Shown piece after piece: positions 54,348 through 61,559 of a stretch of DNA of 64,000 bases. The stretch is taken from assembly GCA_902597675.1 (NCBI GenBank), contig CACJYR010000003.1:1-64000 (forward strand). The letters run 5' to 3'. The translations under genes were made by a program, and so were the position numbers. Position 1 is the stretch's first letter, and each line of letters opens with the position of its first letter. Origin of the DNA: an uncultured Pelagibacteraceae bacterium (lineage in GTDB: Bacteria > Pseudomonadota > Alphaproteobacteria > Pelagibacterales > Pelagibacteraceae). The notes beneath the pieces were generated by a model, which saw only the letters and a list, made by a program, of their open reading frames with translations, had not been told where the DNA came from and made no database searches.

Positions 54348-55882
54348 AAAAAAATTTTATATTTGAGACTTTATTGATAATTTTTTTAGGAAGCTTTACT
54401 TCCTTAAGTTTACCTCCTTATAATTTTTTTTTTTTAAATTTTTTTACATTTAGTGTTTTCTTTATTTTTTTATTTCAGAGACTAAAACAAGGAATAAAAA
54501 AATCTTTTTATTATGGATGGTTATTTGGTTTTAGTTATTTTTTATCTAGTTTGTATTGGTTAACTATATCTTTAAGTTTTGATCAAAGTTTTAATTTTTT
54601 AATTCCTATATCTTTAATTCTCATCCCAGCATTTTTAGGTTTATTTTATGCATTATGTACTGCTATTTTTTATCTATACAAACCAAAAAATATATTAAGT
54701 GCTTTTTTCCTATTTTCTCTTTTGTTTGGTTTAATAGAGTTTATGAGAGGAACAATTTTAACTGGGTTCCCTTGGAACTTGGTAATTTATAGTTTTTCTG
54801 AAATTAATAGTTTCCTAAGCATTTTGTCAATAATAGGAACTTATTCATTAAATCTTATAGTAGTAAGTTTTTTTACAGCTCCCGCCCTTTTCATATTTAG
54901 AAAATCTAAAAAAGAATTCGTTGTATGTATCTTTTTACTGCTATTGCCAATCACTTTTTATACATATGGTGAATTTTTAAAAAAAAATTTTTATAATAGT
55001 AAAGAGAAAGAACTTCCTTTTGCAGTTAGAGTAATTGGAGCAAATATAAGTTTAGATAGGTACTATAAAAACATTAATGCAGAGAGTGTGATTAATGAGC
55101 TAATTTCAATTAGTTCACCCATTAAAGAAAAAAAGACATTTTTTGTATGGCCAGAGGGAATAATACCCAACACTTATGAAGATCAATTAGATTTATACAA
55201 TGACATATTTAAAAAATATTTTAGTGAAAATCACTTAATCGGATTAGGAATAACAAGCAGAAAAACTATTAATAATGATTACAATTATTATAATTCATTT
55301 TCAATATTTGATAGTAAAATAAATTTAATTGACAACTATAACAAAATTAAACTTGTACCTTTTGGTGAATTTGTTCCTATTGAAAATATTCTCAACAAAT
55401 TCGGTTTAAAAACAATCACAAATAATATTGGATCATTTGATAAAGGTGTTAATAGAAAAATTATTAAAATCCAAGATGATCTTAAACAAATAAATTTTTT
55501 GCCATTAATTTGTTATGAAATTATATATAGTGGAAATTTGACTGAAGATTTTGATTTCGATTTTATATTGAATATCTCAGAAGATGGATGGTTTGGTAAA
55601 TCCATTGGACCTAAACAACATTTTATCCATAGTAAATTTAGAGCAGTCGAAAATGGAAAGTATATTATTAGATCATCTAATAACGGGATGGCAGCAATTA
55701 TAAATCCATTAGGTTATATTGAGAATAAAATAGATTATGGAGTTTCGGGTTACATTGATTTAGAGGGCATTAGAGATTTTAAACCAACATTGTTTTCTAA
55801 ATATGGAAATAATATATTTTTCACATTAATTTTGTTGTATATTCTTTTAACATTTTCATTTAATAGAATCAAAAATGAGTGA
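54344..55882 (+). CDS. lnt: Apolipoprotein N-acyltransferase (TTG start)
   Basis: Polytopic N-terminus ([17 protein letters not shown]), nitrilase domain ([45 protein letters not shown]). Confidence 0.96.
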
Positions 55883-57044
55883 TTTAAAAAATTTTCTTTT
55901 TACAAGTGAATCTGTTTCAGAGGGACACCCAGATAAAGTGTCTGATAGGATATCTGACATGGTGGTAGATACTTATTTATCTAACGATCCATATTCGAGA
56001 GTTGCATGTGAAACTCTCACAACTACCAATAAAGTTGTATTAGCTGGTGAGGTTCGAGGACCAGAAATTAAAAAAGATGATTTAATCAATAAAGTAAGAG
56101 AATGCATCAAAGAAATTGGATATGATCAAGATGGTTTTACTTGGAAAGAAGCTACAAAGATAGAAAGCCATCTTCATTCACAATCAAGCGACATTGCTAT
56201 GGGTGTAGACTCTTCAGGAAATAAAGATGAGGGTGCAGGAGATCAAGGCATTATGTTTGGTTATGCCTGTGATGAAACTGATGTTTTAATGCCAGCACCA
56301 ATTCATTTTTCTCACAAAATTTTAAGGTTAATGGCAGAAGATAGGAAATCAGGTAGATTAAAAAATATCGAACCAGACTCTAAAAGCCAAGTAACTTTTG
56401 AATACGAAAATGGTAAACCGTCAAAAGTTAAATCAGTTGTAATATCCTCTCAGCATACTGCAAATGTTAACCAAGAACAGGTTAGAGAATTATTAAGACC
56501 ATATTTAATAAACTCTATACCAAAAAATTTTTTGGAGGGTTTTAATGAAGATGAATTTTATGTAAATCCAACTGGAAATTTTGTAATAGGAGGTCCTGAT
56601 GGGGATTGTGGCCTAACAGGTAGAAAGATTATTGTAGATACTTATGGTGGTGCTGCTCCACATGGAGGAGGAGCTTTTTCTGGAAAAGATCCAACTAAAG
56701 TTGACAGGTCTGCAGCTTATGCAGCCAGATATATCGCTAAAAATGTTGTTGCATCTAAAATTGCCGACAAATGTTTGATTCAATTGGCGTATGCAATTGG
56801 TGTTTCAAAACCTTTATCTATTTATGTGAATCTTTTTGATAATGATTTAGATAAAAATAAATTTGTTGAAGATAAGATTAAAGAAAGTTTTGATCTTAGC
56901 CCAAGAGGAATAAGAGAGATGTTAGGGCTTAATAAACCTATATATGAAAAAACATCAGCATATGGGCATTTTGGAAGAGAGCCAGATAAAGAAGGTGCTT
57001 TTTCTTGGGAAAATACCAATAAATCTGACATTTTCTTAAAATAG
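55875..57044 (+). CDS. metK: S-adenosylmethionine synthetase
   Basis: [60 protein letters not shown]. Confidence 0.99.
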
Positions 57045-57050
57045 TTTTTA

Positions 57051-57078
57051 TTGAAAAACAAAAAAAAACTTTTATATA
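57051..57078 (+). promoter_or_regulatory. Putative housekeeping promoter upstream of nusA
   Basis: TTGAAA (57051-57056) - 16 nt - TATATA (57073-57078) in the metK-nusA gap. Confidence 0.45.
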
Positions 57079-57101
57079 TGCACTTACATTGTTGAATTAT
57101 C

Positions 57102-57128
57102 AAAATGGGCTTTGGCCCATTTTTTTTT
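57102..57128 (+). terminator. Terminator/attenuator-like hairpin in the nusA leader
   Basis: AAAATGGGC-TTTG-GCCCATTTT perfect 9-bp stem, 4-nt loop, then a T tract; the GGAG ribosome-binding sequence begins at 57129. Confidence 0.7.
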
Positions 57129-57143
57129 GGAGTAAACAAAATT

Positions 57144-58697
57144 ATGTTGAATAAAAGAGCAGACAAACTTGAACTATTAAGAATCGCAGAAGCAGTAGCT
57201 TTAGAAAAATCAATTGATAAAGAACTTATTATTAGTTCAATGGAAACTGGAATTGCTAAAGCAGCAAAATCTAAATTTGGCCAGGATAATGAGATTAAGG
57301 TAATGATTAATAGAGATAACGGCGATATCGAAATTTTTAGAAAACTGATAGTTACAGAAAATCCAGAAAATACAAACACTGAGATCAAATTAGAGGATGC
57401 AATAACATTGAATGAGACTAATAAAGACAAAGTGATTGGAGATGAGGTTTTACAACCACTTCCTTCGTTCGACTTTGGAAGAATAGCTGCCCAAACAGCT
57501 AAACAAGTAATTAATTTTAACGTTAGAGAGGCAGAGCGAGAAAGACAATTTAATGATTTTATCGATAAAAAAGAATCGATATTAAGCGGAATAGTGAAAA
57601 GATTAGAGTTCGGAAATGTAATCGTAGATCTTGGAAGAACAGAGGCAATAATCCAAAAAAATGAAATTATACCAAGAGAGAACATTAAAGCTGGAGATAG
57701 AATTAAGGCTTATTGTTTTGATGTAAGACGAGAGCCTCGTGGTCAACAAATTTTTTTATCAAGAGCCCACCCAAAGTTTATGGAAAAACTTTTCGTCCAA
57801 GAAGTTCCTGAAATTTATGATGGTCTGATTGAAATTAAATCATCTTCTAGAGATCCAGGAAGTAGAGCAAAAATTTGTGTTAAGGCAGTTGATACATCAC
57901 TAGATCCAGTTGGAGCATGTGTAGGAATGAGAGGATCGAGAGTACAAGCAGTTGTAAATGAATTACAAGGTGAAAAAATTGATATTGTAAATTGGTCTGA
58001 GGATCCTGCAATATTAGTATCTAATGCTTTATCTCCGGCTGAAGTGCAAAGAGTAAATGTAGACTTAGAAAGAAAAAAATTAGATGTGATTCTTACTGAG
58101 GAAAATTTAAGTAAAGCTATCGGAAGAAGAGGACAAAACGTAAGGCTCGCTACTAAATTATTGAACTTTGAAATAAATATTATGACAGATGCAGAAGACT
58201 CAGAAAGAAGACAATTAGAGTTTAAGGAGAAAACAGAAAATTTTGTTAGGAATTTAGAACTAGACGAAACACTTGGACAACTTCTTGTGGCTGAGGGTTA
58301 TTCCACTATTGATGATATAAAAGATAGTTCAGCAGAAAATTTATTGAAAATTGAAGGTATTGAGGAAGAGACTGCTAAAGCTCTCATAGAGAGAGCAAAA
58401 GAGTTTCATCAAAAAGATCAAGAAGATATTTCCGAAAGGATAAAAGAATTAGGTTTGGATGATGGACTAATTAATTTAAAGGGGTTAACTCCTGGAATGT
58501 TGGTCACTCTAGGTGATCAAAGAATACTTACATTAAATGATTTTGCCGATCTAGCATCAGATGAGCTAACAGGTGGATATGATGTAGTAAAAGGTGAAAG
58601 AGTAAAAATTCAAGGTTACTTGGAAGATTTTGCTTTATCAAAAGAAGAGGCAGATGAACTTATTATGTCTGCAAGAAAAATTGTTTATGAAGATTGA
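57144..58697 (+). CDS. nusA: Transcription termination/antitermination protein NusA
   Basis: Start at MLNKRADKLELLRIAEAVALEKSI; S1/KH regions (DPVGACVGMRGSRVQAVVNELQGEKIDIVNWSEDPAILVSNALSPAEV), C-terminal acidic repeats. Confidence 0.98.
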   Translation: MLNKRADKLELLRIAEAVALEKSIDKELIISSMETGIAKAAKSKFGQDNEIKVMINRDNGDIEIFRKLIVTENPENTNTEIKLEDAITLNETNKDKVIGDEVLQPLPSFDFGRIAAQTAKQVINFNVREAERERQFNDFIDKKESILSGIVKRLEFGNVIVDLGRTEAIIQKNEIIPRENIKAGDRIKAYCFDVRREPRGQQIFLSRAHPKFMEKLFVQEVPEIYDGLIEIKSSSRDPGSRAKICVKAVDTSLDPVGACVGMRGSRVQAVVNELQGEKIDIVNWSEDPAILVSNALSPAEVQRVNVDLERKKLDVILTEENLSKAIGRRGQNVRLATKLLNFEINIMTDAEDSERRQLEFKEKTENFVRNLELDETLGQLLVAEGYSTIDDIKDSSAENLLKIEGIEEETAKALIERAKEFHQKDQEDISERIKELGLDDGLINLKGLTPGMLVTLGDQRILTLNDFADLASDELTGGYDVVKGERVKIQGYLEDFALSKEEADELIMSARKIVYED

Positions 58698-60930: not shown

Positions 60931-61298
60931 TGGCAGATAGAATAGGTAAACCAATTTCACAGAGACAATTAAGAGTGGGTGAAATGATTAAACAATCTTT
61001 AAGCATGATTTTTATAAGAAATGAGGCTAAAGTTCCGAATTTAGAAACAAATACCATAACAGTTACTGAAGTCAGAATGAGTCAAGATTTGAAAATAGCC
61101 AAAGCGTATGTACTTCCTCTTGGAGGAAAAAATGCAGAAGAAACTGTTAATACTTTGAAAGAATACTCATTTTTAATTAGAAAAATTTTATCTCAAAAAG
61201 TAGTGATGAAATTTTTACCAAAATTACTTTTTAGAAAAGACGAGTCTTTTGAGTATGCTGAAAAAATAGAGAATTTAATTAAACAAACAAATAAATAG
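60930..61298 (+). CDS. rbfA: Ribosome-binding factor A
   Basis: QRQLRVGEMIKQSLSMIF, ITVTEVRMSQDLKIAKAYVLPLG. Confidence 0.95.
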   Translation: MADRIGKPISQRQLRVGEMIKQSLSMIFIRNEAKVPNLETNTITVTEVRMSQDLKIAKAYVLPLGGKNAEETVNTLKEYSFLIRKILSQKVVMKFLPKLLFRKDESFEYAEKIENLIKQTNK

Positions 61299-61310
61299 GA
61301 AAAAAGAAGT

Positions 61311-61559
61311 ATGAACAAAAAAGCTCAAGAGTTAGCAATGCACGAAAAAGATACTGGATCGTCAGAAATCCAAATTGCTTTGTTAACAGAAAAAATTGAA
61401 ACGCTTTCAAAACATATCAAACAATTCAAAAAAGATAAACATTCATCTGTTGGATTATTGAGAGCGGTCAATAGAAGAAAAAAATTGTTAGATTATCTTA
61501 AAAGAAATAAGGTAGATTCTTACAAGAATGTCCTGTCGAAATTGAATTTAAGAAAATAA
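61311..61559 (+). CDS. rpsO: 30S ribosomal protein S15
   Basis: HEKDTGSSEIQIALLTEKIETLSKHIKQFKKDKHSSVGLLRAVNRRKKLLDYLKR. Confidence 0.98.
   Translation: MNKKAQELAMHEKDTGSSEIQIALLTEKIETLSKHIKQFKKDKHSSVGLLRAVNRRKKLLDYLKRNKVDSYKNVLSKLNLRK

Follow-up and report, generated by a model that had tools for sequence, protein, structure and literature searches.

The window analysed here is a stretch of 64,000 nucleotides from an uncultured bacterium of the SAR11 family Pelagibacteraceae, in which nusA follows metK on the forward strand. The upstream gene, metK (55875..57044; Pfam S-AdoMet_synt N/M/C within its ORF), encodes S-adenosylmethionine synthetase. Shortly behind it lie a -35-like hexamer, TTGAAA (57051-57056), and, after a 16-nt spacer, a -10-like hexamer, TATATA (57073-57078), from whose position transcription is presumed to start at the A of ACATT (57086). 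A terminator stem-loop, AAAATGGGC-TTTG-GCCCATTTT (57102-57123), begins about 16 nt downstream of A57086 and 57 nt past the end of metK; its arms (57102-57110 and 57115-57123) form a perfect 9-bp stem around the loop TTTG (57111-57114), with a predicted energy of -11.7 kcal/mol. The terminator T tract consists of nine residues (57120-57128), four within the stem and five beyond it, and is followed at once by a Shine-Dalgarno-like GGAG (57129-57132), which lies outside the hairpin. The T tract is separated by 15 nt from the ATG of nusA (57144..58697; Pfam NusA_N, S1, KH_5, and HHH_5); the leader measures about 58 nt and a terminated RNA would measure about 40-43 nt. The nusA gene is the first of the series nusA-infB-rbfA-rpsO-pnp (ORFs, the last four named from their sequences). 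A preliminary description of this region, listing TTGAAA-N16-TATATA, the 9-bp stem, T tract, GGAG, and ATG at 57144, proved exact on direct reading. The ORF list sets the start of nusA at another in-frame ATG (57105), located within the hairpin and 13 codons further upstream. This candidate was rejected, as its frame is not conserved: the distance between hairpin and ATG shifts among relatives in steps not divisible by 3, for which reason ATG 57144 is likely the real start. The in-frame ATG inside the hairpin could mislead gene callers on the start of nusA.

Considered in one genome, the evidence for the hairpin is weak. A simple scan of 14 kb found five terminator-like sites, when 4.7 were expected, the nusA-leader site having the longest T run, and the fold of the 116-nt leader is only 1.1 sd below that of shuffled sequences, which is not unusual stability. 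The promoter falls under the strict scan threshold in the window (position 6 of TATATA is not T), and promoter scan counts in the window were not above chance. It is the conservation, rather than the single-genome statistics, that makes the hairpin significant, judging from aligned relatives. The hairpin with its T tract is present in 32/32 loci of the genus, and its stem-core and T-tract columns are almost all invariant; among fourfold-degenerate nusA sites of the same genus none of 63 is invariant, and the mean majority share is 0.55 (28 of the genomes). It is also present in all 18 loci of the sister family, where NusA identity is about 57% and the stem is mostly AAAAGTGGG/CCCACTTTT with T9, and in 78/78 named Pelagibacteraceae loci with readable upstream sequence. 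The T tract has nine residues in 49 of the 50 genus and sister-family loci and ten in the other (L023). Among relatives, 9 to 25 nt separate the T tract from the ATG, and some lack GGAG there. Upstream of the hairpin, the genus alignment retains a promoter shape, TTG...TATAT (TTG is invariant in the 32 loci), which all 78 named relatives share; the -10-like hexamer is TATATT in most relatives and TATATA in the window. The ACATT around 57086 is conserved as well. The sister family carries, at the same place, another strongly conserved promoter-like block, CTTGATTTAT..GTGTATAG. A near-palindrome TTGAAATTTCAA (TTGAATTATCAA in the window, 57089-57101) is found between the presumed start and the hairpin, and many relatives carry one.

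The conservation extends to pairing. The preliminary description called for a comparison of the stem among relatives and regarded a lack of compensatory changes, together with a nusA start downstream of the hairpin, as evidence against a regulatory element; compensatory changes were found. Of the 132 stem cells, 128 are paired in register, versus 53-95 when the arms are slid, although in-register pairing is somewhat favoured by the hairpin finder, which demands one outward pair or more. An alignment whose row L063 came from the wrong strand did not enter the analysis. Outside the core, the base pairs shift in step between groups, from T-A to G-C and from A-T to G-C to C-G. Within the genus stem changes are few and one-sided, and compensation appears mainly in comparisons across families and orders.

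These features correspond to a known class of regulatory element. The rimP-leader was described as the most ubiquitous transcription attenuator, consisting of a conserved GGGc(...)gCCC terminator stem with a U tract, located 4-130 nt before rimP-nusA-infB and devoid of an antiterminator (Naville and Gautheret, 2010; PMC2965389). The core is present in the window as TGGGC-TTTG-GCCCA and is invariant in the genus; the U tract directly after the stem corresponds to T9 at 57120-57128 and is kept in all relatives; the distance to the first gene of the operon, 15 nt to the nusA ATG, is within the published range, and infB comes next. As in the general rimP-leader, no antiterminator was found in the window leader: a second GGGC/GCCC partner is absent, and in the predicted folds the terminator hairpin is the only stable stem. 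Two differences can be named. The gene behind a rimP-leader is usually rimP, which concerns operon position and not the motif, and this is not so in the window's order; moreover, the outer part of the window stem is A-T rich (AAAAT), whereas GGGT/GAGT is usual in other alphaproteobacteria. The comparison with rimP/nusA leader families proposed in the preliminary description thus gave a match to the general rimP-leader motif, but not at the Rfam cut-off. No Rfam family matched the window at the gathering threshold, and in a permissive search RF01770, the gammaproteobacterial rimP leader, scored 16.1 bits (E 4.8) against a cut-off of 47, other matches being also weak and far below cut-off. With E values up to 1 allowed, the same model matched 0/20 loci of alphaproteobacteria that carry rimP. 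RF01770 includes an upstream CCCCGA/UCGGGG terminator and a potential antiterminator, both absent from window positions 57045-57101, while its 3' hairpin UGGGCU..GCCCUUUUUUU nearly equals that of the window, the proximal GGGC..GCCC and the U tract being shared. Similarly, the rimP leader of E. coli, which RF01770 matches confidently and in which the tandem upstream terminator is present, has a proximal hairpin GGGCUUUAGGCCC with U7 that is nearly the one in the window.

In SAR11 the leader is kept although its usual neighbour, rimP, has been lost. RimP_N and RimP_C domains were detected in 0/61 genomes of the order, of which 18 have a completeness of 90% or more, and control genomes were positive; RimP is present in 177/210 alphaproteobacterial genomes. 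Since RimP is undetected throughout the order, the leader now precedes nusA directly, and for the same reason RimP is, on the genome sequences, very unlikely as an effector in SAR11. A strict search, which required a GGG/CCC core, pairing outward from it, and a T tract, placed the hairpin before rimP in 25 of 37 alphaproteobacterial genomes with rimP. Among 24 genomes without rimP it stood before nusA in eight, two of which belong to the window's own family and some to lineages outside the order; mononucleotide shuffle controls gave 0.1 and 0.01. The common form outside SAR11 is GGTGGGC/GCCCACC or near it. By this strict search a detectable hairpin is absent in many rimP-less and about one-third of rimP-bearing alphaproteobacteria; the leader is not universal, and its retention after rimP loss is not the rule. 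On the well-supported branches of the NusA tree, the rimP-less label must change four or more times. One rimP-less family (f25; L074, L075) with a clear hairpin, AAATGGGCTTTAAGCCCATTTTTTTTT, groups with a rimP-bearing genome (96/92) and apart from SAR11. This grouping suggests a separate rimP loss with the leader kept, in genomes that are 71-79% complete and in both of which trmB, not rimP, directly precedes nusA.

Taking together the motif, its compensation, and its position, it is quite probable that the hairpin is an attenuator of the rimP-leader type, by which NusA-stimulated termination would limit transcription of NusA's own operon. It is proposed that a promoter just past metK starts a transcript at about position 57086 and that within some 40 nt the RNA folds into a AAAAUGGGC/GCCCAUUUU hairpin with U9. 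RNA polymerase reaching this hairpin would either terminate or read through into nusA. A promoter does not fit into the 9-25 nt between T tract and ATG, so transcription of nusA must pass the hairpin, and practically all nusA message would need read-through. As NusA stimulates intrinsic termination, a high level of the protein should reduce read-through, and nusA, infB, and the genes that follow would be expressed less, giving negative feedback on the operon that requires no antiterminator structure. For the rimP-leader, NusA, or possibly RimP, was proposed as effector (PMC2965389), and the same paper refers to older work on repression of the E. coli operon by NusA. For B. subtilis, a review (PMC12288461, citing Mondal et al. 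2016) reports that NusA controls its own operon through termination in the leader. The B. subtilis leader likewise places an intrinsic terminator in the 5' leader of the operon and controls transcription inward; it is long, about 180 nt before ylxS/rimP (PMC2965389), and its control is reported to have been shown by experiment, whereas the window leader of about 58 nt is recognised here from sequence. The preliminary description had suggested a short attenuator through which NusA tunes its operon. The attenuator part gains from the published type, the stem compensation, and the linkage to rimP/nusA, and the role of NusA in SAR11, which we infer, would be like that reported for B. subtilis (PMC12288461).

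The first debatable issue is the identity of the effector. A rimP-leader-type attenuator may respond to something other than NusA, i.e., NusG, a Rho-linked process, nucleotide-sensitive termination, or another product of the operon. A very short leader with neither aptamer nor antiterminator is one on which several factors could act, and NusG, too, acts as an intrinsic termination factor of B. subtilis (PMC8060035). However, NusA is the factor reported for B. subtilis (PMC12288461) and, through the citation in PMC2965389, for repression of the E. coli operon, and RimP, an operon product in other bacteria, is the one that went undetected in 61 genomes of the order. Another effector is considered rather unlikely, though it is the best placed of the alternatives.

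The second issue is whether the hairpin is regulatory at all. It might be the ordinary terminator of a metK (or metK-trmB) unit that insulates nusA as well. The position, 57 nt past the metK stop codon, and the intrinsic-terminator form agree with this, and so does the general placement of strong terminators in a relative. In 400 kb, both strands, of the complete relative G012 (L123-L142), nine strong intrinsic terminators were found; seven of the eight others have stems of 12-16 bp and energies of -16 to -24 kcal/mol, versus 9 bp and -12 kcal/mol for the nusA one, and most of these seven sit just after stop codons. However, a short stem with the GGGC/GCCC core next to the loop occurs only in the nusA leader, both in the 400 kb of the relative and in the window's own genome; regulatory terminators were described as less stable (PMC2965389). 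The gene before the hairpin also changes: the genus has metK there, the sister family and others have trmB, and elsewhere a STAS or a cytochrome P450 gene is found. In some relatives it is a Tim44-like gene on the opposite strand, which cannot need a terminator at this site. Because the upstream gene varies while the hairpin stays before rimP/nusA, the element tracks rimP/nusA and not metK. Furthermore, the stretch separating metK from the hairpin contains a conserved promoter-like sequence, and the gap between hairpin and nusA is too short for a promoter. A plain metK terminator is thus improbable; the version offered in the preliminary description, in which nusA would have a start of its own behind a metK terminator, is disfavoured by the varying upstream gene and made implausible by the 9-25 nt available.

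Translational control, in which the hairpin or U tract would occlude the ribosome-binding site of nusA, had also been suggested, GGAG standing directly after the T tract, but it is very improbable, since the stem does not include GGAG, which the predicted ensemble leaves mostly unpaired, and the variable spacing, the relatives devoid of GGAG, and the fixed T9 fit termination over occlusion. Ribosome-coupled antitermination via the adjacent Shine-Dalgarno sequence was rejected by logic: that sequence is transcribed only after the release point, so a ribosome bound to it cannot prevent termination. The sequence in front of the hairpin was also considered as a boxA-like element, a reading set aside because no resemblance was seen by eye.

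Both the attenuator type and the idea of NusA control were already known, and the novelty is modest in this respect. What is new, as far as the literature searched shows, is the occurrence of the leader in SAR11, an order lacking detectable rimP, together with the resulting argument against RimP as a required effector; the Pelagibacter RNA survey (PMC2704228) has no mention of nusA, and the element lacks Rfam annotation in SAR11 genomes. The 2010 description left the choice between RimP and NusA open. A very abundant ocean lineage without rimP, in which the core of the leader is nearly unchanged, points away from RimP, and retention of the leader after rimP loss, as read from these genomes, argues against RimP as a required effector. 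On balance, we favour the wider view that SAR11 and at least one further lineage, which apparently lost rimP separately and kept the leader before nusA, may serve as natural deletion experiments, indicating that the most widespread bacterial attenuator needs no RimP and answers to NusA, with a minimal form of about 58 nt and a terminated RNA of about 40 nt. The retained leader further suggests that in SAR11, whose streamlined genomes have few strong intrinsic terminators, one is still spent on the control of NusA.

Several observations concern the neighbouring genes. In the sister family, metK and nusA are separated by trmB (tRNA m7G methyltransferase), and a further genus of the window's family has trmB in front of nusA; in the window's genus (G000-G036) there was no TrmB-like match, only weak partial matches to the family. 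TruB (tRNA pseudouridine-55 synthase) was undetected in 37/37 genomes of the same genus set (G000-G036), one of which is complete, and nearly all of the sister family has it. In the window, rbfA is followed directly by rpsO (61298-61311).
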